From contig NZ_JACXWX010000004.1 in NCBI RefSeq assembly GCF_014764505.1, positions 124,001 to 188,000 of the forward strand: 64,000 nt of DNA, given 5' to 3'. A program made the translations under genes and the position numbers. The notes below the pieces were generated by a model. The model was not told the DNA's origin, searched no databases, and worked only from the letters and a program-made list of their open reading frames with translations. Shown in pieces: positions 6,041-27,023 of the stretch. Positions within the stretch are counted from its first letter, which is position 1. Each line of letters opens with the position of its first letter. The stretch comes from Phormidium tenue FACHB-886. Lineage in GTDB: Bacteria > Cyanobacteriota > Cyanobacteriia > Elainellales > Elainellaceae.

Positions 6041-6045
6041 CCAGC
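6041..6045. repeat. Left target-site duplication CCAGC
   Basis: CCAGC immediately precedes the left end of the transposon. The same five bases follow the right end at 26694-26698. In both cases three bases lie between the duplication and the shared GACTGAAA inverted repeat, so the two copies sit at symmetric positions. Five bp is the duplication length made by Tn7-family elements. Confidence 0.75.
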
Positions 6046-6207
6046 TGCGACTGAAACCATAAGTTGAACAATTTTGCAACCATAAGATGAGCAATTGGGG
6101 TGTCCAGTTGCTCATTTTTTAGTTCGGATGACTTTATGGCTTTCAGGGTTTCGCAACCATAAGGTGAGCAAAAGTTCAAAACTGAAACCATAAGGTGAGC
6201 AAAAGTT
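6046..6207 (+). repeat. Left transposon end with TnsB-type sites
   Basis: Four copies of a motif close to RAAACCATAAGNTGAGCA read inward, at 6052-6070, 6076-6094, 6153-6176 and 6183-6207. The last two share CCATAAGGTGAGCAAAAGTT exactly. One copy is reversed (ACTTTATGGCTTTCAG, 6131-6146). Clustered sites of this kind are what TnsB binds in Tn7-family ends. The EVE gene starts 34 bp inside the last site. Confidence 0.75.
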
Positions 6208-8866: not shown

Positions 8867-10537
8867 CTATTCAATAGATTCCAACATCTGTTCTATTTCA
8901 AGCAATTCATTAAAGACTTTAGAGTGCCAGTACCCAGGTCCAAGCTGATCGAGCAAGTGCTCTATGCCCTCTTTCCGCTGCTCCAAATCATCGTTTGACA
9001 AACTTTCTAACACTCTGTCGATGTGATTAATTCCATGATCACCTGCTGCATAGGGAGCACCAAAAACATGGACTAGGATGTCATTTGGGCTAGCAGCTAG
9101 TGTTCTAATACGGGGATTAAAAGAGCGACTAGTATGATTCGCATTACGCTCTAGAAGTAAAATATCTTCTCGTGGAACATCTGTGAGGGTAATGCTAGAG
9201 TGCGTTGTAATCAAGACGTGGCTATGCCTTCCAGTAAGAGCTTTGTCTAGATTAGAAACAATTTTACGTTTCCAAAAATCATTAAAATGAACTTCTGGTT
9301 CATCTAAGAGAATTAGAGCCTCTGCCTCACCCAGTAGGACAAATAAGCACATTCTCGCCAGAAAGCTCTGTTCACCATCACTGAGCCAGTTTAGGAGATG
9401 TAATGGAGGAGAGCTTTCTTCGTCATTTTCTGGATAGTTATCATTTTCTGGATGGTTAGAGGAAGTTCTTTCTATAAAAATGTTTACCTCTCGTAGTACT
9501 GATTGACCACTAGCTCCCGCCTCGTGCAACCTAGACAATCGCTTAAAAAATTCTAAGCTATTAATAAATGCCTTCAAGATCGCTTGGGCAGTGGCTTGAC
9601 CAGAGACAGTTAAGTCAAAAATGATTAAATAATCAGTGCCTAACCGTAAAGCACGTCCAGTCGATGGCTCTCGCGTTGCAATTTGAGCCAGCTGTTCGAC
9701 AAATTCTCGATCGCGCGGGCTAGCAGTGACTTGATTAAGACGGAATTTTAATGAGAAGCCAGACAGCCCTTTTATACTTGCCCCGTTTTCTCCGTTGAGC
9801 ACTTCTACCAATCGTGGATAGTCTGGCGATACGGCTAAATCAGCAAGAAGTCCACAAAGAGTCACCAAAGCTAGTTGCTTTGTTTCTATGAATGGGAAAC
9901 GGGTTTTCTGCTTCTGCTTCTGTTCGTTTTCCTCATCTAGGTCTTCCTCTATTGAGTCAGGGGAGGTAGTAGACCATCCAGGCAATTCTTGAAGCGCTCG
10001 TTCTCGCAAAATTTCTCTTCTTTCAGATAAATCTTGCGGCAAAGGAGCAAAACTGCCCTCTGACTTATCTCTATCTTCTTTTTCTAATTCTTTCCAGGCA
10101 GTTTCGCTGCCGGTCGTAAAAGCCACGACAATTTTAGGCAAGATGTCTTTGTCTACCCTGACAGGCTCACTAGCATCATCTATCCAAGCCTCCGGCTCAT
10201 CAAGAATAAAATTATCATTTACCTCTATGGCATCTGGAGTTTGAGCAATGTTTGTTATTTTTACTGCTTTCTTTTTTACTATTTTCTGTGGGTCATCATG
10301 ACCAAGGTCATACTCCAGAACGAATCCATAATCTGGTGAGTTGTTTCGTTCTAAACACCGCATGATATCAAGAAGTAACCGCAAGACAGTCGATTTGCCT
10401 GTTCCATTGACTCCGACTAAAAAGTCCAAGTAGTAGGTAGGCGAATAGTCAGGGGAATCGTCGATGTCAGGGCTGAATTTAATTTCCAGCTTTCTTAAGA
10501 CACGATAATCTTCTACGCGCAAGCGTCTTAGTCTCAT
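8867..10537 (-). CDS. RecF/SMC-type AAA ATPase (restriction-associated, PtuA-like)
   Basis: 556 residues from ATG 10537, whose ATG overlaps the TGA of the methylase gene (ATGA) and follows a GGGAGAG. The start MRLRRLRVEDYRVLRKLEI is the usual first strand of RecF-like ATPases. Walker A is GVNGTGKST (residues 42-50), the ABC-type signature is LSDGEQ (385-390), Walker B is ILLDEPEVHF (409-418) and the H-loop is TTHSS (444-448). The middle holds charged helices (EEDLDEENEQKQKQK) instead of a long coiled coil. Such OLD/PtuA-class ATPases act as sensors or DNA clamps that licence a partner nuclease, here most plausibly the HNH protein encoded next. AAA ATPases of this type are known next to restriction-modification genes; the partner assignment is inference from order and spacing. 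Confidence 0.85.
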   Translation of the reverse strand: MRLRRLRVEDYRVLRKLEIKFSPDIDDSPDYSPTYYLDFLVGVNGTGKSTVLRLLLDIMRCLERNNSPDYGFVLEYDLGHDDPQKIVKKKAVKITNIAQTPDAIEVNDNFILDEPEAWIDDASEPVRVDKDILPKIVVAFTTGSETAWKELEKEDRDKSEGSFAPLPQDLSERREILRERALQELPGWSTTSPDSIEEDLDEENEQKQKQKTRFPFIETKQLALVTLCGLLADLAVSPDYPRLVEVLNGENGASIKGLSGFSLKFRLNQVTASPRDREFVEQLAQIATREPSTGRALRLGTDYLIIFDLTVSGQATAQAILKAFINSLEFFKRLSRLHEAGASGQSVLREVNIFIERTSSNHPENDNYPENDEESSPPLHLLNWLSDGEQSFLARMCLFVLLGEAEALILLDEPEVHFNDFWKRKIVSNLDKALTGRHSHVLITTHSSITLTDVPREDILLLERNANHTSRSFNPRIRTLAASPNDILVHVFGAPYAAGDHGINHIDRVLESLSNDDLEQRKEGIEHLLDQLGPGYWHSKVFNELLEIEQMLESIE

Positions 10538-12681
10538 GTCTCTCTCCCTGAAAGTGAGCCGTTTGAGCCGAATAGCCATATATCTCGCTCCGTTACACGA
10601 CGGTAAGCGAACATCGTTGATTTACTTTTGGGATCTACGACTGTTACAGGCACAATCAACCCCATGCATTCTAGGAGGGCTAATGTAAGACGAGTTGACT
10701 CTAAAGTTCCCTCGGAATAATCTAAATTTAACTGCTCTAGGGTGAAATGTAACGCTGTCTCATAATTATCAGGCTCTGCATCCCCAACCAATGCTGTCTT
10801 CTCGCATATCTTTCGCCAAACCTGCTGCTGGTCATCGTTAAGCTTACTAACTACATTCAATTCCTCTTGAATAAGCTTGGGAGGCGTTCGCTCCTCCTGA
10901 GCAAGTGAAGGTAGTTCCAATCGTCCAAAAAGGCTATCAATTCGCTGAGCTAGTTTTCTCTGATTATCATAAATATTGCGAAGAAGGGTGGTGGGAGAAT
11001 CAATGAGTTGGGATTCAACCGGGGTAATAACGTAGCGCTCTGGGCGGAGATCGTAGGCTTGTTGCTGAATATCGATTGCTCGAACCCCCACCCCTAGTAA
11101 TCTAGGGGATTCACCAATTGCCCCTTTTCCATCTCTAAAGAACGCGATCGCAGCAGCCCAAGCTGGACTAGTAAGCAGTTTGATTGAGGATGGCTCTACT
11201 TGCTTCGAGATCTCTTCTGTTTCTTCGACTTCAAGTTCTTGCTCTTCGCTAGGGTTTTCAGCGGAGGAAATTACGGCTCTAGTCGAGATCCAGACTGTTT
11301 TAGGTATAGGGACCTTGACTGTAATCTTGAATTCTGTTGGTGGCGTTAGTAGTTCCAGCAACAGGTGCGGACCCTGCTCAACTTCTTCGACTTCAGGTTC
11401 TTGCTTGGTTGACCCTGTTGCTGACGGATCAATAAATTCAACAGATTTGAGAGCATGGTTAATGCCCCAACAAACTACACCTGGACATCCTGTTTCTCTA
11501 GAGATCCAATGCACTTTTACCTCTGGAGCATCGCCTTTAGGGAACTGAGCATTAGGTGCGGGGTGCCGCTTTGCCCACAGCTGTTCTACAAAGGGTAAAT
11601 CGCTGGTTTGAGGAGGTGGGTACTGAGTTAAATTGCGTCCCCGACCGGAAGGATAGCCATCCTGCTCTAGCTGGAAGAACCAGGTCAAATGATCTTCGGG
11701 AGATAATCGCTTCGTAAAGAGTAATAGATTGGTCTGTAATGGGCTGTAGGGTTGAAACGCATCTTTAGGAAGGGCGACAACTGCATCTAACGTATTTCCA
11801 TCCACTAAATCAGTGCGGAGGGCTTTATCGGCTGAATTGTTACTGAATAGTAAGCCAGAAGGGGCTAAAACACCTGCTATTCCATCCTGGTCTAGATTGC
11901 GTAAGGCTAACGTAATGAGGGCTGTCTCACTTCTACTAATTTTCCTACCTAACTTGTCCCCTGTAAGAGCAGCGTCCATCTTTTCGCCAAAAGGCGGGTT
12001 CATGAGAACACGGCTGAAGGCTTTAACACCACTAAATTTTTCAACTCTGAATGGAAAAAGTCGCTCTTGGGAGAGTAATGAGTCTGATTCATCAACAATG
12101 CTGAGGGAATTGCCATCCTGAATGGAGTCTTCTCGTAAGGGAATTCTGTGTAGAAGTAGATTTGCTCTGGCAATTCTTGCCCATTCTGGCGATATTTCAA
12201 CACCAAAGGTTCGAGGTTCCTGGTTTCCCTCAGTCACTTCTCTAGTAACTAGTAGCCCACCACTTCCACAGGCAAAATCTGCTAAAGAGTCGCCTGGGTT
12301 AACTTCAGCAAGAGTGTGCATGAAACGAGCGATATGGCGTGGTGTGGGGTAGCGCCCTCCTGCCAGCATTTCAGACAAGCGAAATAGGACATGCTGATCG
12401 AAGAGAGTAGCAAATTGTTGAACCCGGTCATCACCGCCTAGTTGTTCAGCGGCAGATCTTAAATCATCTCGCAATCGGGCAAACTTAGTAATATCGACAG
12501 AGTCAGCCCGCACAGTAAGGGATCGGGGCAATAAGCGATCGGGCAACTCTCCTTCTAGTTCGCTTTCGTTTAGAAACAACCGAGCGATGTACTCGATAAT
12601 TGTTAAGTCATCAGCGATTCCGGCACTACGAAAGACCGACCATGAACGGTTTACTGCTTCATTAGCTTCGTTGGCTGACAC
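10534..12681 (-). CDS. Second N6-adenine DNA methylase with long C-terminal extension
   Basis: 715 residues. The AdoMet-binding motif is DFACGSGG (135-142) and the catalytic motif NPPF (228-231), the signature of gamma-class adenine methyltransferases such as HsdM. It is not a duplicate of the HsdM two genes upstream: the N-terminal domain differs and residues 430-480 contain two acidic repeats (EPEVEEVEQ; EEQELEVEETEE). The C-terminal part has helices (LRNIYDNQRKLAQRIDSLFG) like the end of HsdS/HsdM conserved regions and then a possible winged-helix (LNLDYSEGTLESTRLTLALL). It starts 39 bp after hsdS and overlaps the ATPase gene by four bases. It may methylate a second site, or act as a DNA-binding scaffold for the ATPase and HNH nuclease; the sequence does not decide. 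Confidence 0.8.
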   Translation of the reverse strand: MSANEANEAVNRSWSVFRSAGIADDLTIIEYIARLFLNESELEGELPDRLLPRSLTVRADSVDITKFARLRDDLRSAAEQLGGDDRVQQFATLFDQHVLFRLSEMLAGGRYPTPRHIARFMHTLAEVNPGDSLADFACGSGGLLVTREVTEGNQEPRTFGVEISPEWARIARANLLLHRIPLREDSIQDGNSLSIVDESDSLLSQERLFPFRVEKFSGVKAFSRVLMNPPFGEKMDAALTGDKLGRKISRSETALITLALRNLDQDGIAGVLAPSGLLFSNNSADKALRTDLVDGNTLDAVVALPKDAFQPYSPLQTNLLLFTKRLSPEDHLTWFFQLEQDGYPSGRGRNLTQYPPPQTSDLPFVEQLWAKRHPAPNAQFPKGDAPEVKVHWISRETGCPGVVCWGINHALKSVEFIDPSATGSTKQEPEVEEVEQGPHLLLELLTPPTEFKITVKVPIPKTVWISTRAVISSAENPSEEQELEVEETEEISKQVEPSSIKLLTSPAWAAAIAFFRDGKGAIGESPRLLGVGVRAIDIQQQAYDLRPERYVITPVESQLIDSPTTLLRNIYDNQRKLAQRIDSLFGRLELPSLAQEERTPPKLIQEELNVVSKLNDDQQQVWRKICEKTALVGDAEPDNYETALHFTLEQLNLDYSEGTLESTRLTLALLECMGLIVPVTVVDPKSKSTMFAYRRVTERDIWLFGSNGSLSGRET

Positions 12682-12720: not shown

Positions 12721-13992
12721 CTACAATTCGCCTCGAAATGCCCGTTCCAGGATCGCTTGTTCTAGCTGGTCAAGAGTTTTAGCATCCTGATCCATGAGTT
12801 TTATCATTGCCTCCGACTCATCAAGCACAGAATCAAGATAGTTAACTACTTGATTCTGGGCATTGATTGAAGGTTTAGGGACTGGAATTTCTAGAACACT
12901 TGTGGGAGAAATACCCGTTTGTCCCCGGTTTTCAGCAAAAGCAGTTCCAGTTCGGCGACTTAAAACCTCCCGATTGCCTCGATCAGACCAGAGGTAGTAG
13001 TAAAGCCATTTACTAGAAAGATCTTGCTGATCCCTGGAGCGTAGAATCATAATTTTGCCGTCTACCGTCCAATTTTCTTCACATTTGTCAACATAAGAGA
13101 CACGTCCAAGTGTCCCTTCAGCAGCATTTGCCATCAAAACATCACCAGGTTTCAAAAACCTATCTTCAGGCATTTTTTGAGCTTGATCTTCCTTCATATA
13201 TGAAGGTCTATCCATTTTTAGGGAGTGTGGGTAGACGTGCTTACTTTTGAAAACTCGAATATTTGACGTTCCTTCACCCACAGCCCTACCGTTAAAGGCT
13301 GTCGCTACTGTCGCTAAAGGAACAATTTCAGCCATAGATTCGAGTTTATTGAAAGCATCATTAACCGTAACAGCTAATAATCGATCGCAATCCCGACGCA
13401 TTTCATCAAGCAATTCACGAGACGATCTCACCTCAGCCAACAGTGCTTCTACCCGCGCAATAATTCGTTGCTGAATATCAAGAGTCGGAGGTACCGGAAT
13501 GAGAGATAATTTCACGAAATCAGATGGAACTCGCTGTTGTCCAACTGCACCCTTGAAATGTTTTTGAGCTTCCTGTCTAAAAGATAGTCGTCTAACAAAC
13601 CTATAAATCCACTCTGGTAATACATCAGGTCCAGGACGAAGTACATGGAATTCAGTAGAACCAAACCCAATTCCATCAACCAGATTACGCGCTATTGCTG
13701 ATTTCCCATTCTCCATACAAGGAGTAATCTTCGCAAATAAGACATCTTCTTCCTCGAAGTATGTATAACCACGAGCTACTTCCTGATATTGACGAATTTC
13801 TAAACTATCAATACTTCCTTCTATATCATTAACGCCAGCCATTGGTAGGAATGAAGTGAGTTGCTCAGGTTGACGCTCGATTCGAGGTCGTCTTGGATTA
13901 ATTTCACAAACTTCTTCTAAAGGTTGTAGCCTCCAAGAGGGTGGTAACTTCCTTTGAAGTTCTTCGATTTCGGTTGTATTCAATGCAAGCAT
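12721..13992 (-). CDS. hsdS: Type I restriction specificity subunit HsdS
   Basis: 423 residues with the two-fold plan of HsdS: a first target-recognition domain (PLEEVCEINPRRPR to about residue 160), a helical spacer (QQRIIARVEALLAEVRSSRE), a second recognition domain (VPLATVATAFNGRAV to about 375) and a second helix ending LEQAILERAFRGEL. Each recognition domain reads half of a bipartite target, so the specificity cannot be predicted here. The start ATG shares one base with the TAA of hsdM (TAATG). There is no sign of recombinational shuffling repeats or a second hsdS nearby. Confidence 0.92.
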   Translation of the reverse strand: MLALNTTEIEELQRKLPPSWRLQPLEEVCEINPRRPRIERQPEQLTSFLPMAGVNDIEGSIDSLEIRQYQEVARGYTYFEEEDVLFAKITPCMENGKSAIARNLVDGIGFGSTEFHVLRPGPDVLPEWIYRFVRRLSFRQEAQKHFKGAVGQQRVPSDFVKLSLIPVPPTLDIQQRIIARVEALLAEVRSSRELLDEMRRDCDRLLAVTVNDAFNKLESMAEIVPLATVATAFNGRAVGEGTSNIRVFKSKHVYPHSLKMDRPSYMKEDQAQKMPEDRFLKPGDVLMANAAEGTLGRVSYVDKCEENWTVDGKIMILRSRDQQDLSSKWLYYYLWSDRGNREVLSRRTGTAFAENRGQTGISPTSVLEIPVPKPSINAQNQVVNYLDSVLDESEAMIKLMDQDAKTLDQLEQAILERAFRGEL

Positions 13993-15512
13993 TATGCCTC
14001 CTCCCCAGTCACTATCTTATGGAGGCGCTCTACAATACTCTGAAGCTTTTCCTGATTCTCTAGAATTCTGGCAGTGAGCTTTGACGGGTGGGGTAAGGCT
14101 TCTTCCTCAGCTTGATTGGGATTCCGAGCGGACAGGTCAAATCCCAGATCCGTGAAGGTTTTAATGTCTACATACCAGCTTGACTTTGGCAGCTTTTCAA
14201 TCGGAACCTCACCCGATTCAAATAGTCTTAAAAGCTGATTAATCTGTCCTGCCTCAGCAAAATGCTCGTCGTTGATTGGGCTGCCCTTGCTAAACTTCCT
14301 CAGGTTCTCAGGCAAAGGCATCTCGTAGTAAAGGACCTGCTTGGTCGAACCCGATCGCTGGAAGAACATCAGAGCCGTTTTGACATCAGAATAGGGGGCA
14401 AAGGCTCCAGGTGGGAGGCTAACGATTAGAAACAGATTGAAATCGTCTAAGAGCATTTCCTTGACGGTAGCAAATGCCCCACTCCGAAAAAGAGTGCCTT
14501 CAGGAACCACCACACCACACCGCGCTTTTCGACCAGGCTTCAGCTTCTTCAGAATGTGCTCAAGTGCGAGCAGTTCAGTGGCATTGCTCTTGATCGGAAA
14601 GTTCTCCTGAATTTGAGCATTTTCCTTGCCACCAAAGGGGGGATTGGTCAGCACCACGTCAAAGCGTTCAGAAACGGTGCGAACATTTTCTTCCAGCGTG
14701 TTCCGCCGCCGAATGTCGGGCACCAATACCCCATGCAGCACCATATTCATCGCTCCCAACAGGGCAGGCAATGCCTTTTTCTCTTGCCCCGTAAACGTTT
14801 TGGTCTGAAGGATTTTGCGGTCTTTAGTTGTTTTCTCCTGCTGTTTCATGTGGTCATATGCTTCAACTAAAAATCCACAAGAGCCGCAGAAGGGGTCATA
14901 AACGGTTTCGCCAATTTGGGGATCAATCACCTCTACCATGAAGCGAATAATCGATCGGGGCGTATAAAACTCTCCAGCTACCTTATTTTCGTTGCCTAGC
15001 CGTCTGAGTAGGGCTTCATATACATGGGAAACGGTGTGGATGTCATCAGGATTCTTAAAGTCAATGCTATCGACAATCTCTAGCACATCCTTTAGGTTAT
15101 AGGGCGAGGCGCAGACCAGGACGTTGCGATCGCCAAAGATGCCAGCAATGATCTCCCGCTCTTGGGAACCGGATAAATTCGCTAAATAAGGAATTAACGT
15201 CCCTCGAACAAACCGCATCAGTTCTTTGCCGTCCCACGTTGGCGTTGCCCGACGACCATTTTCGCCTGTCTTTTCTCCCAGAGCGTTAGGCACCCAATCC
15301 GACCAGCGATAGCCACTGTCAATTACCCGCGTGAACTTGCGCCCTGACAGTTTTGCTTCCAGTTCAAATATTTCTTCCTGCCCATCCAAAAACTTGAGGA
15401 ACAACAACCAGGCGAGATGCTCGACATACTCCATCACCCCGCCGCAATTATCATCTCGACGGAGAATATCACAGGCTCTCCAAATGTCGTTTTCTAGCTG
15501 CTCCCGACTCAC
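13992..15512 (-). CDS. hsdM: Type I DNA methyltransferase subunit HsdM
   Basis: 506 residues. The N-terminal helical HsdM_N domain (YVEHLAWLLFLKFLDG) is followed by the methylase domain with DPFCGSCGFL (206-215) and NPPF (290-293). The consensus Gly-Gly in motif I is Cys-Gly here, a substitution seen in other HsdM proteins and unlikely to inactivate. It transfers methyl groups to adenine N6 in the target read by HsdS and protects host DNA from HsdR. The start ATG overlaps the TGA of hsdR (ATGA). Confidence 0.95.
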   Translation of the reverse strand: MSREQLENDIWRACDILRRDDNCGGVMEYVEHLAWLLFLKFLDGQEEIFELEAKLSGRKFTRVIDSGYRWSDWVPNALGEKTGENGRRATPTWDGKELMRFVRGTLIPYLANLSGSQEREIIAGIFGDRNVLVCASPYNLKDVLEIVDSIDFKNPDDIHTVSHVYEALLRRLGNENKVAGEFYTPRSIIRFMVEVIDPQIGETVYDPFCGSCGFLVEAYDHMKQQEKTTKDRKILQTKTFTGQEKKALPALLGAMNMVLHGVLVPDIRRRNTLEENVRTVSERFDVVLTNPPFGGKENAQIQENFPIKSNATELLALEHILKKLKPGRKARCGVVVPEGTLFRSGAFATVKEMLLDDFNLFLIVSLPPGAFAPYSDVKTALMFFQRSGSTKQVLYYEMPLPENLRKFSKGSPINDEHFAEAGQINQLLRLFESGEVPIEKLPKSSWYVDIKTFTDLGFDLSARNPNQAEEEALPHPSKLTARILENQEKLQSIVERLHKIVTGEEA

Positions 15513-18163
15513 GCAATATCCTCACGATAGAGACGCTGCTGCACCTCATTTAGGGCTTGGCGTAAATTCTCTATCGTACCGAATCTTTGGACAACCCCAG
15601 ACACTTGCCCCATTTCTCTAAAGGGTGACAAGCGAAACACCTCAGGGTTAACCATTTCATCTACCCCTGCCAGACGATACTTGTCCAATAAAGCCAAAAT
15701 CACTTCTTTAGCCTCCGGAGTCTGGTTCTCCAGAAATCGCTCCTCATAGTTCAAGAATGCCTCTGTCCGCTCATCACGAGTGTGAACTGGCTTGTTGAAA
15801 GCTATATGTGCCAGAAGGTCAAACTGATCGGCTTTGGGTTGTGCCAAGACCTCGGCTAAAACCTCAATATGAACGCTCTCGGCTTCTAGTTCCTCTAGAA
15901 GGGCTTCTCGGTGATTAGTATCTGTCCAAATCTCATGCAGTTGGCTCCAGGCAGGAACATACCCCACCACCTTTCGCTTCGTGTAATCCAAATACTGTGC
16001 CAGAGTAAGCTGCTCTCCGGTAGACTCCACCAGAAATGTGGCTTCATCAGCGATCGTAACCTCCAGTCCCCGCACTCGAATCTTGCCAGGAGTGGCTTCA
16101 AAAGGTTTTAGCTCGATCGCTACACTTTGAGTAGCATCTGGAGCCGTTTCAACGCTCAAATTGCGGGGACGAAAGCCCGCTCCCTTCACAGCAAGACGAA
16201 TGGTTGTGGCTGGCAATTCTTCAAATCGAAAATGCCCATCGTCATCCGTTCGGACAGGTCCAACCTGCTGGTTTGCTCCAATCAAAGCACTTACCGCAGC
16301 CCCTACAATTAAGTCGCCCGTGTCAGCATGAATGACTGTCCCTTCTAGAATGCTGGTTCGCGGTCCTTCAATTTCTGCTGGTGGCTCTCCTGGTGGGCGA
16401 TCCCACTCATCAAACAGTCGGGATGCTCCTACATAATCAATAATACGGAACCATTCCTTGCCGATTGCAGCGTCAACCCGTGATCCCCGACCGATGATCT
16501 GTTTGAACAAGATTGGGGAAGCAATAGGCTTGATGAACACAATGTTCCGGCAGGAGGGCACATCAACCCCTGTGCTCAATAATTCTGCTGTGGTGGCGAC
16601 TATGGGAGTTTGGCGATCGCTATCCTGAAACTGCTCCAGCCAAGACTCCGCTTCCCCCTCTTCCGCAATGATAGGAACGGCATAGTCCGAGTAGCCCAAC
16701 TCAGCGAACTCATTCTGGAGCAGGCGAGCCGTCAAACGAGCATGAGTTCTATCCACACAGAAAACCATTGTTTTATCAGTAGCTCCAAAGCGGCGGAGTA
16801 ACCCCGCTAGGTGCTTGGTAATGGCTTCAGTGCGATCGGGCACCGTAATCTCTCGCTCAAACTGGGGAGTCTGGTAAACATCCCGCAAGTCCTGCCCTTC
16901 GGGAACGTAGATCTCAGCCCCCTGAACTTGGGCATCTTGAACGTGCAGCCCATCCTTATCTACCGTTGTCCGAACTCGATGGATTTTGTAGGTAGCGAGG
17001 AACCCATCTTCAATACCCTGTCCTAAGCTGTAGCTGTAGGCAGGCGGTTGCCAGGTTCCTTTAGTCGGGTCTTCTGGGTCTAGAGGAATTTCTGGCTCTT
17101 CCGCACAGAAGTAGGCATAGGTATCAACGCTCTCACTCTGCTTGGGCGTAGCCGTCATGCCCAACTGAATTGCCCCAGTGAAGTGTTGAAGAATCGCGTT
17201 CCACTTACCAAAGCCCGATCGATGGCACTCATCAATAATGATCAAGCCAAAGAAATCGGGTGGAATGCTCTTGAATAGCGAGTCATCTCCGTCACCAGAA
17301 TCCAAAGCCTGGTACAGGGCAAAGTAAAGCTCACGATTCGCGTTGAACTTCCCTCCCCGAATCAAGGCACGCGGATCGGCTGATCCACTGGCAAACGGTC
17401 CAAAGGCGTTGTAAGCCTGATTGCGTAAGACAATGCGATCGGCAATAAAGAGAACAGGCTTATTCAGCCATCCCGACTTCTTCAGCTTCCACACAAGTTG
17501 GAATGCCGTGAACGTCTTACCCGTCCCTGTCGCCATCGTCAAAAGGATTCGCTTCTGTCCAGCTACTACTCGTTCAATTACCCGCCGAATCGCCACCTCC
17601 TGAAAATAGCGAGGCTCCTTGCCGCAAATAGAAGTTGGACAGAATGGGTAAAGTAGCGGATCAGCTTTGGCATCTGGTTCTACGGCATAGGTTCCACCTG
17701 CTTCTGCTGCGATCTGGCGATCGTGGAGTTCCTCAGCAGCTTGCTCACGATACTGCTGCCACCGTTGCCAAAGCTCATGAGGGGTTGGGAAGGTGGAAAG
17801 CTCGTGGCTTCGATTCGAGAAAAAATCAAATTCTACGAATCCATGTCCATTGCTGGAGTAAGCAAAAGGCACGTCCAACATTTTGGCGTAAGACTTAGCT
17901 TGTTCTAGCCCCGAATCGACTTCGTGCGTCTCATCCTTCGCCTCCAGCACAGCGACCATCTGTCCGTAATAACGCAACAGGTAATCGACACGCCGGGGCT
18001 GACGACGTTTAGACTCTTCACCCACTAAATAAATTCTGCCAGCCGTAACGGGACGACCCTTAACAAAGTAATGCTCACGTTCAATCTGGCTCTCTCCCCA
18101 ACCTGAGAGCTTAAGTTTAGGGTCAATCAGTTTGGCACGTGTATCAGCTTCGTTATAAGACAC
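15509..18163 (-). CDS. hsdR: Type I restriction endonuclease subunit HsdR with Ig-like insertion
   Basis: 884 residues, first gene of the operon. The N-terminal nuclease has D60 and E74-A-K76 in VDYLLRYYGQ..AVLEAK. The SF2 motor has Walker A ATGTGKT (211-217), DECH (311-314), TATP (about 337) and QIIGRGSR (555-562). Between the motor and the C-terminal helical domain, residues 604-688 form a carboxypeptidase-regulatory-like Ig fold (GTVIHADTGDLIVGAAVSA; DDDGHFRFEELP; IRLAVKGAGF). That fold is common in secreted and membrane proteins and is out of place in a restriction motor. The C-terminus (about 720-884) resembles the EcoEI-type HsdR tail that contacts HsdM/HsdS. The start MSYNEADTRAKLIDPKL is the standard family start. 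Confidence 0.94.
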   Translation of the reverse strand: MSYNEADTRAKLIDPKLKLSGWGESQIEREHYFVKGRPVTAGRIYLVGEESKRRQPRRVDYLLRYYGQMVAVLEAKDETHEVDSGLEQAKSYAKMLDVPFAYSSNGHGFVEFDFFSNRSHELSTFPTPHELWQRWQQYREQAAEELHDRQIAAEAGGTYAVEPDAKADPLLYPFCPTSICGKEPRYFQEVAIRRVIERVVAGQKRILLTMATGTGKTFTAFQLVWKLKKSGWLNKPVLFIADRIVLRNQAYNAFGPFASGSADPRALIRGGKFNANRELYFALYQALDSGDGDDSLFKSIPPDFFGLIIIDECHRSGFGKWNAILQHFTGAIQLGMTATPKQSESVDTYAYFCAEEPEIPLDPEDPTKGTWQPPAYSYSLGQGIEDGFLATYKIHRVRTTVDKDGLHVQDAQVQGAEIYVPEGQDLRDVYQTPQFEREITVPDRTEAITKHLAGLLRRFGATDKTMVFCVDRTHARLTARLLQNEFAELGYSDYAVPIIAEEGEAESWLEQFQDSDRQTPIVATTAELLSTGVDVPSCRNIVFIKPIASPILFKQIIGRGSRVDAAIGKEWFRIIDYVGASRLFDEWDRPPGEPPAEIEGPRTSILEGTVIHADTGDLIVGAAVSALIGANQQVGPVRTDDDGHFRFEELPATTIRLAVKGAGFRPRNLSVETAPDATQSVAIELKPFEATPGKIRVRGLEVTIADEATFLVESTGEQLTLAQYLDYTKRKVVGYVPAWSQLHEIWTDTNHREALLEELEAESVHIEVLAEVLAQPKADQFDLLAHIAFNKPVHTRDERTEAFLNYEERFLENQTPEAKEVILALLDKYRLAGVDEMVNPEVFRLSPFREMGQVSGVVQRFGTIENLRQALNEVQQRLYREDIA

Positions 18164-18667: not shown

Positions 18668-19282
18668 TTACTCCTCACTGTTTGCCGAAGGTTCTAAACG
18701 GCGCATCTCGTTTGTAAGCGATCGAGATAGCACTTCGTCTCGAATAGACTCGAAAGCTGCCCTAATATCAGACCAAACAAATTTTAATAATCTGGCATCA
18801 CAAGTGAGCCAAAGGATGAAGAGGTTGTCTGGTAAACCATCGAAATGGTCTTTTATAACTTCAATAAAACGATAGTCCTGAAATCGATGCCTTAAATCCA
18901 TATCGGAACCGTAGAAATCACGAATCCAATCACTGACAATAAAGGCACCAGGACTGTTAGGAAGTGAAGCTCGTTCAGCAAATGGCAGAACCTGAATTTT
19001 AGAACTCTCCTTGATCTCTAGAGGAGGCATGGACTGTATAGCCTCTTCCATAAAGAGGAAGACCGAAGGATCTAATTTTCTAGAATCGCAATTGGGAAGA
19101 TCGCCCAATGGAATTCTTCTACGACCAATCTGTTCTATTAACTCTGATCGGGACAGTCCTCGATCTGTCGCTAAAAGATCAAGTCCTTCAACAGCTTTAG
19201 GAGTCAACGAAAAGTTAACTCGTTTTTTAAGCTCATCATGAAGCTCAGGGATACCTCTAGTACGTTTGTGTCCCTTGGGCAT
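18668..19282 (-). CDS. Ribbon-helix-helix DNA-binding protein, likely repressor
   Basis: 204 residues. Residues 20-55 (KRVNFSLTPKAVEGLDLLA, then DRGLSRSELIEQIGRRRI) match the Arc/CopG ribbon-helix-helix: a short strand and two helices that bind DNA as dimers on tandem sites. The remaining 150 residues are unassigned (LPFAERASLPNSPGAFIVSD; HFDGLPDNLFILWLTCDARL) and may be a ligand- or protein-binding domain. The gene lies between cargo and tns genes and diverges from tnsAB over 354 bp. Three 20-bp direct repeats lie 49-108 bp before its start. It is therefore a candidate autoregulated repressor of transposition. Confidence 0.65.
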   Translation of the reverse strand: MPKGHKRTRGIPELHDELKKRVNFSLTPKAVEGLDLLATDRGLSRSELIEQIGRRRIPLGDLPNCDSRKLDPSVFLFMEEAIQSMPPLEIKESSKIQVLPFAERASLPNSPGAFIVSDWIRDFYGSDMDLRHRFQDYRFIEVIKDHFDGLPDNLFILWLTCDARLLKFVWSDIRAAFESIRDEVLSRSLTNEMRRLEPSANSEE

Positions 19283-22450: not shown

Positions 22451-23598
22451 TGCAATTAATAAATGGTTTTCCTCGTGAGCTATTAAACTCTTCTGTTCAG
22501 GAAAGAACAGCCTTTTTTGAAAACTATACGATGCCACACCCAAGGTTAATTGAGTCGGTTAAACAATTAACGGATTCTATATATGAATCTGCTAAACCGC
22601 CAATTGTCTTTGTATTTGGTCCTACTGGTGTTGGCAAATCGACCTTAATACGCAAGGTCAGAAAAAACCTTATTGAGTCGGCTTTACCTGATTTGTTTGA
22701 GGATAGAGCGCGGATTCCATGTGCAGTCATTGAAGCTGCAACGCCGGAGTTTAGCAACTTCGACTGGAAGGATTTCTATGTTCGAGGCTTGACTGCTTTA
22801 CAAGAACCGTTAATTGATAACAAAGTTGACCCTGACTCCGCTAAAAAAAAGCCTAATCCTGACAAAAATAAATTGAAATTACGCCTTTCTTTTGAGGAAG
22901 CATTACGTCAACGTCACCCTGATGCCTTCTTTATTGATGAAGCCCAGAACTTGGGAAAGTTAAGCAGTGGGCGCAAGCTGAAAGATCAGACAGATTGCAT
23001 CAAATCTATTGCCAATATTTCTGGGGTTCAATTTGTTCTGGTTGGAACATATGAGTTGATAGTTCTTCGGAATTTAAGTGCCCAGTTATGTCGCCGTAGT
23101 ATTGATGTCCACTTTTCACGCTATCAATCAACTCCTGAAGATCTAAAAATCTTTGAAAATATTGTTAAAACTTTCCAATACTACTTACCGCTACCAGAAA
23201 TTCCCGACTTAGCTAGCCATTGGGATTTCTGCTATGAACGGACGATTGGTTGCGTTGGGATTCTTAAAGATTGGCTATCTCGTACACTCAGTGCAGTCCT
23301 TAAAACTAATCCATCAGCAAAAACGATCACTTACAAAGATTTGATGAAGCACGCTTGGTCTGTAGAACAATGCAGAATTATGTTGACCGAAGCTATGGAG
23401 GCGGAGGGGAAGTTTAGGGACAAGGATGCGGGGAAGAATGATTTAAGAATGGCTTTAGGTCTAGTTGCCAGTCAAGCATCAACCTCACAGGTGACTTCTC
23501 AATCTGATACAGCAACCCCTCAAGGAAAAGGAAAAACTCGGAACGTAGGTAAGCCAAACCCAACCCGTCGTCCTACAGGAGAACGAAATGATAGCTGA
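22450..23598 (+). CDS. tnsC: TnsC-type AAA+ transposition regulator
   Basis: 382 residues. Walker A is GPTGVGKS (57-64) and Walker B FFIDEAQ (160-166), as in TnsC/TniB ATPases, which polymerise on target DNA and pass the chosen site from a TniQ protein to TnsB. The last 60 residues are Gln/Ser/Thr-rich and basic. It is translationally coupled to tnsAB (TAATG) and overlaps tniQ1 by 11 bp. Confidence 0.92.
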   Translation: MQLINGFPRELLNSSVQERTAFFENYTMPHPRLIESVKQLTDSIYESAKPPIVFVFGPTGVGKSTLIRKVRKNLIESALPDLFEDRARIPCAVIEAATPEFSNFDWKDFYVRGLTALQEPLIDNKVDPDSAKKKPNPDKNKLKLRLSFEEALRQRHPDAFFIDEAQNLGKLSSGRKLKDQTDCIKSIANISGVQFVLVGTYELIVLRNLSAQLCRRSIDVHFSRYQSTPEDLKIFENIVKTFQYYLPLPEIPDLASHWDFCYERTIGCVGILKDWLSRTLSAVLKTNPSAKTITYKDLMKHAWSVEQCRIMLTEAMEAEGKFRDKDAGKNDLRMALGLVASQASTSQVTSQSDTATPQGKGKTRNVGKPNPTRRPTGERNDS

Positions 23599-25159
23599 CC
23601 CAACAACTATCTATGGCTTTTGGGACTTGAATGAGCCAATACTTCCAGCACGTAGCCGTTTGTATTGCCTAGAACCAATTGGTCTAGGTACAGCTTATGT
23701 AGAAAGCCTAACAGGTTATGTGGCTCGCCTATCTGAAACTCATCGAGTTGAAACCGGGATGCTCATCTTGACCCAAATTGCACCCTTCATGAAGGAGGGA
23801 TATGTATTTGATGGGCGTGCAGGTGGCATAGATAAACTGTTTGGACGATACACTCAGGCTTTTAACGGAGCATCTGATTGGACAAATGCTCTAGTTACAG
23901 CTTTGGAGTCCCTGACCTTACGCCATGATTTAAGGTTTCTATCGATGTTACCTTGGGCTGAAGTAATTCCTCTCAGATATCTGCTTCGCACTAACCGAGC
24001 TTGGTGCCCAGTTTGTTACGAGGATTGGAACAGCAATGAACAGGAAATTTATGAGCCACTTGTATGGGTCTTCGATGCTATAGAAATTTGCCCTCATCAC
24101 GATCTCCCGCTCTGTACTAAATGTCCCCATTGTGATGTGGAAAACAGGCAGTTGGATTGGTCCTCTAGACCTGGTCATTGCTCCAAATGTAAGGAATGGC
24201 TCGGAATGAGGCTGAATTTTTATCAAGCGAATTTGGAAGAAGTTTCCAAGGAGGATTTGAGTCGGCAACTATGGGTTTTTGAGAATATAGGGGGTCTGCT
24301 TGCTGCCACTCCAAGGCTAGCTTGCTCACCATCCAAAGAAACAATCTCAACAGCGATCGCCACTTATGTTGAAGCAACCTCTCAAGGAAAAGTATCCAGA
24401 TTTGCCAATAAAGTCGGTATCGCAAAACAGCAAATTCACCGACATATTGATGGCAAGACGCTTCCCTCCTTGAAAACCCTATTACACCTTTGTAAGCATC
24501 TTGACCTTCCCTTACTAAATTTCCTAACCCAGCAGCCTACGTTAGAAGATTTAACAAGAGCCTCTGAAAACCTTCCCCAATTAGAGCGTTCTGCTAGAAA
24601 AGAAACTCTTGAGATTCGGCATAATGCTGCCGGTGTAAAGGTTGCTCTAGAAGCAGCCTTACTTGAAGAGCCGCCACCATCAGTTCAAAATTTGAGTACA
24701 AGGCTTGGATATGCAAGCCCAGGTCCACTGTACTATCATGCATCCGAGTTAACTCATGCTCTTGCAAAGAAATATGCTGCTTACGACAAGATGCGACGCC
24801 TAGAAGGAATGCGAAGCGTTTTGGAGAGCACACTTCAGAAGGAAGAGTACCCACCTCCTTCAATGCAGGATGTTGCTAGAAGAGAAGGATTTAGCGTTCA
24901 ACTCGTCAAACGCACTTTTCCAGAGTTATCAAAAGCTATTTCGGCTCGTTACGAAATGTATCGAAAGTCTCTTAAGGAGGTTCGTATAGGGAAGTTGCGT
25001 CAAGAAGTTAGGGATGTAGCCCTTCAATTACACAACCAGAGGATTGAGCCTACAGGTGCACGCATATCGAAGTATTTAAGCAAACCAAGATCAATTCTTC
25101 AGCAAGCAGCTATTGAAGCTGTACACGAGATTCGGCGTGAACTGGGCTGGGAAAAGTGA
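23588..25159 (+). CDS. tniQ: TnsD-like TniQ target selector 1
   Basis: 523 residues. The TniQ domain starts SRLYCLEPIGLGTAYVESLT and carries zinc-ribbon cysteines C140/C143 (WCPVCYED), C168-H171, C176/C179/C182 and C198/C201 (HCSKCKEWLG). Residues 265-315 (FANKVGIAKQQIHRHIDGKT) are an XRE-like helix-turn-helix. The C-terminus holds repeated winged-helix-like modules, PPPSVQNLSTRLGYASPGPL and PPPSMQDVARREGFSVQLV. Large C-terminal DNA-binding regions mark TnsD proteins, which recognise a fixed chromosomal site; the natural target here is tRNA-Leu(GAG). It shares the whole domain order with the next gene. Which of the two reads the tRNA is unknown. Confidence 0.9.
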   Translation: MIADPTTIYGFWDLNEPILPARSRLYCLEPIGLGTAYVESLTGYVARLSETHRVETGMLILTQIAPFMKEGYVFDGRAGGIDKLFGRYTQAFNGASDWTNALVTALESLTLRHDLRFLSMLPWAEVIPLRYLLRTNRAWCPVCYEDWNSNEQEIYEPLVWVFDAIEICPHHDLPLCTKCPHCDVENRQLDWSSRPGHCSKCKEWLGMRLNFYQANLEEVSKEDLSRQLWVFENIGGLLAATPRLACSPSKETISTAIATYVEATSQGKVSRFANKVGIAKQQIHRHIDGKTLPSLKTLLHLCKHLDLPLLNFLTQQPTLEDLTRASENLPQLERSARKETLEIRHNAAGVKVALEAALLEEPPPSVQNLSTRLGYASPGPLYYHASELTHALAKKYAAYDKMRRLEGMRSVLESTLQKEEYPPPSMQDVARREGFSVQLVKRTFPELSKAISARYEMYRKSLKEVRIGKLRQEVRDVALQLHNQRIEPTGARISKYLSKPRSILQQAAIEAVHEIRRELGWEK

Positions 25160-26529
25160 TTAACGTTATGGGTGAAATCTTCTCCCCTGACAACTTATGG
25201 GATCTCAATCTACCTGAAGTTCCACCACGCAGTCGTCTTTATTGCTTGTCCCCCTTTGGTGTTGGTACTCCTTATATTGAAAGCCTAACTGGATACGTTG
25301 CTCGTCTTGCCAACCTTCACTACGTCAATGCTGGCACTTTACTAGCGAAAGAATTTGTAACGCTTTTAAGACAGCCTAATAGCAAGAGCTATCTTCATGG
25401 TATGAGCAGCCGTACAGAAGCCTTTAATGGAACAGGTGCTATGGCTGCTGATCTAGTCCAGGCACTAGAAAGACTTACTACGCAGAATAACTTAAGATTA
25501 CTGACAATGCTAACCTGGGCTGAGGTTCTTCCTGCCAAAGGGTTACTACGCCACAATCGTGCTTGGTGCCCCATGTGCTACAAAGATTGTTTAGAAGGGA
25601 AGCGATCGGTATGTGATCCACTCCTCTGGTCACTAGAGGTAGTTAAAATCTGTCCAAATCACCGCCAACCTTTGCAGAGCCATTGTCCTCACTGTGAACG
25701 TCAACTACCTTTTTTAGGATGGCTTTCTCGCCCAGGCTATTGTTCTAAGTGTGGAGAGTGGCTTGGTCAACAGCTTAAAGACACGGAAACGGAACCAGGT
25801 GGGTTGGATTGGCAGCTGTGGGTTTCAGAAACTGTAGGGGATCTGCTTGCAAAAGCACCATTCCTAACCAGCCCACCAGCAAGGGAAAAGGTTGCAAGGA
25901 CGCTAAGGGCTTGTATTAATCAAATAGCTGAGGGAAATACTGCCGAGTTTGCTCGGCAGATTGAGATGCCCAAAAATACAGTCTGGCTGTGGATGTCAGG
26001 CAAGGTATTGCCACAGCTTGATGCCCTTCTAAAAATCTGTCATTATTTGGAACTATCTGTGAGCGACTTCCTGACAGAAACGGGCGTAAGCTTGGGAAAT
26101 AATGGGGCGATCAGGACATCTCATAGCTCAGCTATTTCAAATTCGAGACGATCTACTAGTAGAGTATTCGATGCCTCCAAAATTCACTCTTTGTTAAAAG
26201 AATTTCTTGATGACGATACTTACGCATCCTGGTCAATGCAGCGCATTGCCAAACAGCTTAACTATGATGCGAACTTTCTTCGCAGACACTTTCCAGAACT
26301 TTGTCGTAATATCTCTGCTCGGTATTTAGAATATTGTAAATCCGAACGTATTAGAAAAGTTAATCAAAAGTGCTTAGAAGTCCAGGAAATTGCAATAAAA
26401 CTCTACAAGGAAGGGGAAGAGCCAACACGCAATAGCATTTCCCAGCATTTAGGTAAACCTGCTTACTTCAGAGAGAATGAGGTTTGCGTGGCTTTGGAGA
26501 ATGTGCGGCATCACTTAGGATTTGACTAA
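25156..26529 (+). CDS. tniQ: TnsD-like TniQ target selector 2
   Basis: 457 residues, starting at a GTG that overlaps the tniQ1 stop (GTGA); an ATG at 25168 is an alternative. It repeats the plan of tniQ1: SRLYCLSPFGVGTPYIESLT, zinc motifs C138/C141 (WCPMCYKD), CPNH, CPHC and YCSKCGEWLG, then an XRE-like helix-turn-helix (FARQIEMPKNTVWLWMSGK). Only one clear winged-helix module follows (YASWSMQRIAKQLNYDANFL), so it is shorter by about one module. The two genes arose by duplication and have diverged well beyond recent copies. In type I-B CRISPR transposons the second TniQ links to Cascade, but here no cas gene exists and this protein keeps its own DNA-binding tail. A second fixed target is the simplest inference. 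Confidence 0.9.
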   Translation: MINVMGEIFSPDNLWDLNLPEVPPRSRLYCLSPFGVGTPYIESLTGYVARLANLHYVNAGTLLAKEFVTLLRQPNSKSYLHGMSSRTEAFNGTGAMAADLVQALERLTTQNNLRLLTMLTWAEVLPAKGLLRHNRAWCPMCYKDCLEGKRSVCDPLLWSLEVVKICPNHRQPLQSHCPHCERQLPFLGWLSRPGYCSKCGEWLGQQLKDTETEPGGLDWQLWVSETVGDLLAKAPFLTSPPAREKVARTLRACINQIAEGNTAEFARQIEMPKNTVWLWMSGKVLPQLDALLKICHYLELSVSDFLTETGVSLGNNGAIRTSHSSAISNSRRSTSRVFDASKIHSLLKEFLDDDTYASWSMQRIAKQLNYDANFLRRHFPELCRNISARYLEYCKSERIRKVNQKCLEVQEIAIKLYKEGEEPTRNSISQHLGKPAYFRENEVCVALENVRHHLGFD

Positions 26530-26593: not shown

Positions 26594-26620
26594 CATGTCA
26601 GGCTTACTTAAGGGGATTAT

Positions 26621-26693
26621 GTAAGCATAAAGTGAGCAACCAGTTCTGAAAGCATAAAGTTAGCAATTTGTTCACTTTATGCTTTCAGTCATA
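26621..26693 (-). repeat. Right transposon end with TnsB-type sites
   Basis: The terminal site (26669-26688) reads inward on the minus strand as CTGAAAGCATAAAGTGAACA. Two further copies, 26621-26639 and 26647-26666, read in the opposite direction (GCATAAAGTGAGCAA and GCATAAAGTTAGCAA). The last pair forms a palindrome with 15-bp perfect arms (CTGAAAGCATAAAGT at 26646, its complement at 26674). Same-end sites in opposing orientation are unlike the tandem sites of canonical Tn7. Confidence 0.7.
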
Positions 26694-26698
26694 CCAGC
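26694..26698. repeat. Right target-site duplication CCAGC
   Basis: Copy of the CCAGC found directly left of the element at 6041-6045, here directly after its right end and 26 bp before the tRNA-Leu 3' end. Confidence 0.75.
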
Positions 26699-26724
26699 CT
26701 TATCTCTAGACCCATATAAACTCA

Positions 26725-26805
26725 TGCGGATGGCGAGACTCGAACTCGCAAGGCAAAGCCACACGCCCCTCAAACGTGCGCGTATACCAATTCCGCCACA
26801 TCCGC
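26725..26805 (-). tRNA. tRNA-Leu (anticodon GAG)
   Basis: 81 bases. Acceptor GCGGATG pairs with CATCCGC, discriminator A, no encoded CCA. The anticodon stem CACGT/GCGTG encloses the loop TTGAGGG, giving GAG. The long variable arm (TGGCTTTGCCTTGC) is typical for tRNA-Leu. The T arm is GAGTTCGAGTCTC-like. The transposon lies just past its 3' end, making it the probable attachment gene. Confidence 0.93.
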
Positions 26806-27023
26806 AAACAGGGTTTGGAGTGTCAGCGCTTGAAACCACCTAAGAATAGGCTAAATCAAGCTTGGCGTTCTCCAGTATCTCAGCATACTGCAAAATTCTA
26901 AATTCTGCATCCCCTCAGTTGCCCGGCTCCCTTTTAGCAGAATGCCAGTGCATTCCCAAAACCTACAGTAAACTTACAGTCAAAGCCTACAGTCCGCAAA
27001 GCCTATACCCTGCAGAAACTGCC
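26806..27023. other. Intergenic, upstream of tRNA-Leu
   Basis: This stretch carries the tRNA promoter side and the 3' flank of the subtilase gene. I see no coding sequence with support and no strong hairpin. Confidence 0.4.

Follow-up and report, generated by a model that had tools for sequence, protein, structure and literature searches.

Two TniQ selectors in a CRISPR-free Tn7-like element of Phormidium tenue: a predicted tRNA-Leu reader and a candidate second, protein-only pathway

We describe a complete Tn7-like transposon in a 64,000-nucleotide stretch of Phormidium tenue FACHB-886 (contig NZ_JACXWX010000004.1, positions 124,001 to 188,000), referred to here in its whole length as the window. 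The element encodes two TniQ proteins, TniQ1 and TniQ2. The comparisons gathered below make it probable that this is a CRISPR-free member of the TnsAB-fusion group in which TniQ2 directs insertion at a tRNA gene and TniQ1 acts as a second, protein-only selector for other targets. TniQ2 would recognize the tRNA-Leu(GAG) gene and place the element, in a fixed orientation, about 30 nt beyond the 3' end of that gene. TniQ1 would read DNA by itself at targets other than tRNA-Leu(GAG) and may have made the type of second insertion seen in a close relative, G180; TnsC would accept either selector. TniQ1 fills the slot that a Cascade-coupled TniQ holds in related elements (slot 1), so the element probably follows a two-pathway lifestyle without guide RNA. 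TniQ1 probably sends it to non-tRNA places, the safe chromosomal site being left to TniQ2.

The assignment of the tRNA to TniQ2 draws on relatives from searches of 388, 36, 386, 42, 3 and 63 genomes, partly overlapping, together with one named scan of 12 loci. Close TnsAB proteins were present in 32 genomes of the 388-genome cyanobacterial sample (the loci compared exclude the G136 locus of that search), and a relative was encoded in none of 46 candidate stretches from viral contigs. All searches together yielded 17 fetched loci where a tRNA, for Leu in 5, Ala in 11 and Val in 1, comes after a TniQ2-type protein. At 17 of 17 loci, inspection by eye places the limit of the end repeats about 30 nt from the tRNA and shows one common orientation; the tip is degenerate in L025, and in L031, L034 and L035 tniQ2 is separated from the right end by cargo. 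Pairwise TniQ identity was regressed on TnsAB identity, with 5000 permutations of the isotype labels. After regression, same-isotype pairs gained 5.3 points of TniQ2 identity (1/5000 permutations), whereas the slot-1 TniQs of the same 17 loci showed -0.3 points (2773/5000); thinning to ten backbones left +4.2 points for TniQ2 (47/5000) and -0.75 for slot 1 (3049/5000). TniQ2 tracks the tRNA isotype and slot 1 does not, which on these alignments makes TniQ2 evidently the tRNA selector, here for tRNA-Leu(GAG). Two marks of a tRNA-homing TnsD are seen in TniQ2: full-length homology to a solved TnsD, that of PDB 8v32 (E 9.6e-111; Foldseek 4e-35), and a protein type that follows the tRNA. The TnsD of the CRISPR-associated transposon (CAST) CyCAST homes experimentally to tRNA-Leu, 30-33 nt downstream, according to the accessible text of PMC10293859. 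The same FACHB-886 genome also holds a second tandem pair of long TniQs (668 and 441 aa; contig C124, L008:51-6197), located at tRNA-Ala(GGC), whose tnsAB is cut by the contig start.

The second pathway is suggested by G180, the nearest relative, with a TnsAB 85% identical to that of the window. The fetched G180 copy has no adjoining tRNA, and its right end runs into a protein-kinase gene (contig C5); an identical right end also lies directly beside tRNA-Leu(GAG) on contig C30, and two left ends were found in this genome. The kinase copy is framed by a perfect AAGCG duplication common to contigs C16 and C5, and a 513-aa kinase frame, interrupted at codon 427, runs on across the joined flanks. 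Thus, in one genome, a window-type element reaches a non-tRNA site as well as tRNA-Leu. The kinase site was ruled out as a pseudo-tRNA site by its lack of similarity to the tRNA flank (395/500 shuffles score as high, against 0/500 in the window control). Its likeness to a plasmid-type site was not significant either, the best result being 12/1000 shuffles among 15 comparisons. The earlier note, made from the letters of this stretch alone, had predicted two different fixed targets or a cooperative selector complex. Two jobs, with the tRNA as one of them, are borne out by the isotype test and the G180 sites; a single fixed target for TniQ1 is not.

Sites outside tRNA genes also recur among plasmid relatives. 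L052, L077 and L079 are TnsAB-fusion elements at non-tRNA sites on plasmids, each with a long, TniQ1-like protein as the sole TniQ in its vicinity. L052 (11679-11726) and L079 (10993-11040) abut a common 47-bp sequence (0/500 shuffles), the L079 version of which occurs at 45 places in 26 plasmid records. Where this sequence stands without such an element (L113, L116 and L118), repeats precede it and a serine-recombinase-type gene lies at a distance of 280-290 bp, with a DDE transposase adjoining in two of the three; the sequence is apparently the end of another, recombinase-bearing plasmid transposon. L117 (2501-2547) has a right end only, abutting the same position in the 47-bp sequence. L077 (10683-10742) abuts a second plasmid sequence, TGACAGCTTCGCTATATCTAC, found in 20 records. 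It lies about 28-45 nt from right ends in L077, L120, L121 and L126 (more weakly in L122 and L123), occurs without a right end in L125 and L127, and has tyrosine-recombinase genes near it in L120, L122 and L127. Among ten right-end places, counting near-identical records of one strain group once and L117 and L120-L126 by their right end only, three have the 47-bp sequence (L079, L052, L117), six have TGACAGCTTCGCTATATCTAC more or less well, and L124 has neither. Two further elements, L054 and L055, likewise have a long TniQ as the only one nearby, their right tips lying beside unrelated, non-tRNA sequences. L128, on a conjugative plasmid of Nostoc sp. C052, is a relative whose one TniQ is small (~305 aa) and whose right end shares about 80% identity with that of G180.

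Both TniQ proteins are intact, full-length members of the family, as the earlier note had stated. Pfam TniQ matches reach 54.2 bits in TniQ1 and 59.6 bits in TniQ2 (cut-off 27), and each protein keeps the full set of zinc ligands and a Cro/C1-type helix-turn-helix (HTH) domain, the XRE-like HTH of that note (HTH_26, 22.4 and 22.8 bits; cut-off 22). Its C-terminal winged-helix modules have to be given up: the AlphaFold models (mean predicted local distance difference test scores 83.8 for TniQ1 and 80.9 for TniQ2) are all-helical past the XRE-like HTH, with predicted HTH repeats and no beta wings. For both models the best Foldseek match is the TnsD of 8v32, followed by the TniQ of a type I-B CAST, 8fcu. 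A small, home-made profile of the ~65-aa HTH repeat, built from the window proteins' own repeats, counts two copies in TniQ1 and one in TniQ2. Across the proteins compared, it finds one copy in 18/18 TniQ2-type proteins. Proteins labelled long TniQ1 (n=20) mostly have two (17), one having three and two having one; the 668-aa L008 protein has two by profile and more by eye. No repeat was found in 20 of the 22 proteins labelled small TniQ, the other two (414 and 471 aa) having one. A NIES-4105 relative is annotated as a TetR-type regulator, and the TetR likeness of the repeat is otherwise weakly supported.

The view that the element is free of CRISPR functions holds up within the element. Scanning of element proteins revealed no Cas protein; the sole Cas-flavored matches were those of TniQ1 to generic TniQ models and, weakly, of HsdR to a DinG-type helicase. 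Nor does the element contain a CRISPR-type array, its three direct-repeat families (minimum length 20) all being transposon-end repeats. In the positive control, L019, Csc3, Csc2, Csc1 and Cas6 lie inside the element ends. The window element thus lacks what defines a type I-D or I-B2 CAST, namely Cascade genes, a CRISPR array and a small Cascade-coupled TniQ. Type I-B Cas7 was found near no tnsAB; 3 of 31 genomes were positive, but elsewhere.

The history of slot 1 was approached with trees of the TniQ core and of TnsAB, leaving out L021_q (a near-copy of L022) and L028_q (a fragment) from the former and L077 from the latter. TniQ1 falls in a clade of nine long CRISPR-free TniQs (support 100/96), and the small TniQs of I-D CASTs form a clade of their own (100/99), a result that disfavors the reduced descendant contemplated in the earlier note. 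In the TnsAB tree, with a modest deep support of 80%, the window clade is nested with L019/L020, and the rest of TniQ1's clade lies in the sister group. Approximately unbiased tests rejected a single TnsAB clade for the nine backbones that carry TniQ1-clade proteins (p 3.4e-47) and likewise for the five with CAST TniQs (p 3.9e-05). TniQs of I-D CASTs are 54-60% identical between TnsAB backbones that are 36-41% identical, and CAST/dual pairs from three backbones share 56-68% of TnsAB and 46-63% of TniQ2 but 30-36% of slot 1. The CRISPR-coupled selector has therefore passed between backbones, and slot 1 is exchanged with CAST TniQs from one backbone to another. CAST status was taken from hidden Markov models for L019 and L020 and from the TniQ only for L032; for L043 and L036 it was taken from csc2, located about 4.3 kb away from tnsAB and, in L036, broken. 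The CAST TniQ lies between tnsC and tnsD in L019 and L020, which is TniQ1's place, and upstream of tnsAB in L032, L036 and L043. Close relatives with cas genes in the same slot had been named beforehand as evidence against the dual-selector proposal; L019 and L020 (TnsAB ~60%) are of this kind, but the nearest two (TnsAB 85% and 80%) have the dual CRISPR-less form.

TniQ1 shares 44% with its L024 counterpart, about as expected from a TnsAB identity of 49%. Such values can be explained if TniQ1 came down vertically from an ancestor with two selectors; the window would then exemplify the older state. Horizontal transfer of TniQ1 into the window backbone was considered, the nine backbones not being one clade, and set aside: the identities can also be explained by vertical inheritance and a replacement that came later in other lineages, and no direction is claimed for TniQ1 itself. 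On balance the comparisons favor a platform over a reduced descendant, direction not being proven. A broader proposal is tentative, and we hold it somewhat less probable than its negation. The CRISPR-free pair of long TniQs would be the platform on which I-D CASTs arose, with slot 1 as a plug-in position. The job would be reflected in the count of HTH repeats: small and CAST TniQs lack them, tRNA selectors have one, and most long selectors have at least two. A "spread" pathway would be served by the long selector, which would read mobile-element DNA, as is suggested by the related long-TniQ elements that lie at a fixed distance from conserved plasmid sequences, one of these being the end of another transposon. 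Cascade would have replaced this selector in up to three backbones. In the I-D CAST of G303, the TnsD (C1:2604044-2605090) has an internal TAG stop.

Several observations weigh against two protein-only pathways. G180 has the one non-tRNA insertion known in TniQ1's clade, a single event in a draft assembly, and its kinase site convincingly resembles neither tRNA nor plasmid sites; the insertion could be an off-target event via TniQ2, TnsC alone or TniQ1. That assembly yielded only one tniQ pair of window type, and the flanks of its tRNA copy are unmatched (left AAGAA, right GTTCA), which would fit a collapsed, rearranged or partial copy. The TniQs at the plasmid sites fall outside TniQ1's own clade, so their targets are not transferable to TniQ1 and support it by analogy only. 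Finally, the host has a I-D csc2 locus and two CRISPR arrays on another contig (C4, L129), where no tns gene was found; the host Cascade could be used in trans, or the C4 locus could be unrelated.

Three other explanations were weighed against a tRNA selector paired with an independent second one. The least improbable of them, though still rather unlikely, is that TniQ1 is relaxed or decaying and directs insertion almost at random, the kinase insertion being an example; such behavior is claimed for Tn5469 in the accessible text of PMC11406308. A coding gene was indeed interrupted at a place with no recognizable relation to other sites, and TniQ1 diverges faster than TniQ2 (69% versus 83% between the window and L017). 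However, the TniQ1 frame is intact and the zinc ligands are kept in all three members of its closest clade, and related long TniQs mark repeated plasmid sites. A joint TniQ1-TniQ2 complex reading the tRNA site, with no second pathway, is unlikely. The adjacency and overlap of the two genes would suit it, as would the resemblance of both models to the same TnsD structure and the fact that all dual copies with a right end in reach, but one, are at a tRNA. Yet slot 1 does not track the tRNA isotype, and I-D CASTs are found at tRNAs with the same spacing although their slot-1 protein is very unlike TniQ1. The CyCAST TnsD homes alone to tRNA-Leu, with added TniQ lowering homing (accessible text of PMC10293859), and the non-tRNA insertion of G180 exists. 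Still less likely is an I-D (or I-B2) CAST that lost its cas genes, leaving TniQ1 as a former Cascade adaptor. Its attraction is the closeness to the I-D CASTs L019/L020 (TnsAB 60-61%, TniQ2 46-48%) and the nesting of the window clade among small-TniQ lineages in the TnsAB tree. Nevertheless, TniQ1 stands outside the CAST-TniQ clade, is about 30% identical to CAST TniQs, has two extra HTH repeats where these have none, and looks vertically inherited from its identity to L024. A truncated CAST was set aside on the TniQ trees and identities.

By its end repeats and target duplication, the complete element runs from 6046 to 26693 (20,648 bp; Table 1) in an 8.9-Mb cyanobacterial draft of 255 contigs (G000). 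The span proposed earlier, 23588-26529, correctly covers the two tniQ genes but falls short of the element itself. All four transposition genes lie on the + strand, together spanning 19637-26529, with tniQ1 and tniQ2 in tandem and overlapping by 4 bases. Against 0.94 expected, the window contains 9 matches to the end-binding motif, and the two ends account for 6. A TnsA-TnsB fusion with TnsC and TniQ, two repeat-bearing ends and a 5-bp duplication place the element in the TnsAB-fusion branch of Tn7-like transposons, to which the I-B2 and I-D CASTs also belong. Compared with TGT..ACA tips, the window has TGC and TAT, G025 has TGT at both ends, and G180 has TGT at the right and TGA at the left; the window right tip (26688-26693) reads TATGAC, the right ends of G025 and G180 TGTGAY. 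Terminal bases of transposon ends are important, and the window copy, with its deviant right tip (TAT for TGT), may be immobile, or frozen in place. An end-pattern search of its own genome found no further pair of ends, and thus no second copy; a third match (C190:130177) falls within the left end. The cargo genes encode a type I restriction set and a second methyltransferase-like protein, along with an ATPase that is PtuA-like and may have a partner.

Table 1. Positions of the element's features within the window.
Feature	Position	Strand	Remarks
Target-site duplication CCAGC, left copy	6041..6045	.	read directly; identical to 26694-26698
Left end: tip TGCGACTGAAACCATAAG and repeated transposase-type binding motifs	6046..6207	+	end repeats at 6052-6207
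Cargo open reading frame, 183 aa	6242..6793	+	no PADLOC match
Cargo open reading frame, 683 aa	6798..8849	-	weak matches: PtuB-type / PDC-M01B models
Cargo AAA ATPase, PtuA-like / restriction-associated	8867..10579	-	
Cargo type I methyltransferase-like protein	10534..12681	-	
Cargo type I specificity subunit	12721..13992	-	
Cargo type I methyltransferase	13992..15512	-	
Cargo type I restriction subunit R	15509..18163	-	
Ribbon-helix-helix protein	18668..19282	-	PF01402
tnsAB: TnsA-TnsB fusion, 937 aa	19637..22450	+	PDB 9bw1_M, E 1.6e-278
tnsC: AAA+ ATPase / TniB-like, 382 aa	22450..23598	+	
tniQ1: long TniQ, 523 aa; TniQ core, XRE-like HTH, two ~65-aa HTH repeats	23588..25159	+	
tniQ2: TnsD-type, 457 aa, GTG start; TniQ core, XRE-like HTH, one HTH repeat	25156..26529	+	
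Right end: three binding motifs; tip read inward TATGACTGAAAGCATAAAG	26617..26693	.	
Target-site duplication CCAGC, right copy	26694..26698	.	
tRNA-Leu(GAG), attachment site	26724..26806	-	3' edge 30 nt from element

These observations bear on the way in which Tn7-like elements acquired CRISPR for choosing their targets. In each of three backbones, closely related TnsAB-TnsC-TnsD sets occur with either a CRISPR-coupled or a CRISPR-free slot 1, which makes the exchange directly testable. Should TniQ1 recognize a DNA target of its own, one and the same transposase would allow RNA-guided targeting to be set against a protein-only layer made up of HTH repeats that can be counted. Tandem TnsD loci and TniQ exchange in the TnsAB-fusion branch, including non-CRISPR targeting, are already in print, as far as the accessible portions of PMC10293859 and PMC11406308 go. 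Faure et al. 2023 (PMC10293859) counted 1,048 tandem tniQ/tnsD loci, among them "two tnsD genes." The CRISPR-less dual pairs are given no functions in the accessible text of that study, and the isotype test and the second-site relative are additions made here. Our literature search, which stopped short of Hsieh and Peters 2023, found no test of which member of a CRISPR-less pair reads the tRNA; no priority is claimed.

Set beside known systems, the window element resembles the I-D CASTs (CyCAST, McCAST) and the I-B2 CAST PmcCAST in its TnsAB fusion, TnsC, predicted tRNA-homing TnsD, ~30-nt tRNA spacing and paired TniQs. Its TniQ2 and TnsAB align nearly full length with the TnsD of 8v32 and the TnsAB of 9bw1, both of which we take to be PmcCAST structures. 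Unlike these CASTs, it lacks cas genes, an array and a small Cascade-coupled TniQ, and slot 1 is held by a long TniQ with two HTH repeats. Canonical Tn7 uses TnsD and TnsE for two protein-only pathways, one of them to a fixed chromosomal site. The window element would likewise run two protein-only pathways, but its second selector would be a TniQ paralogue rather than TnsE, and its attachment site is a tRNA gene rather than glmS.

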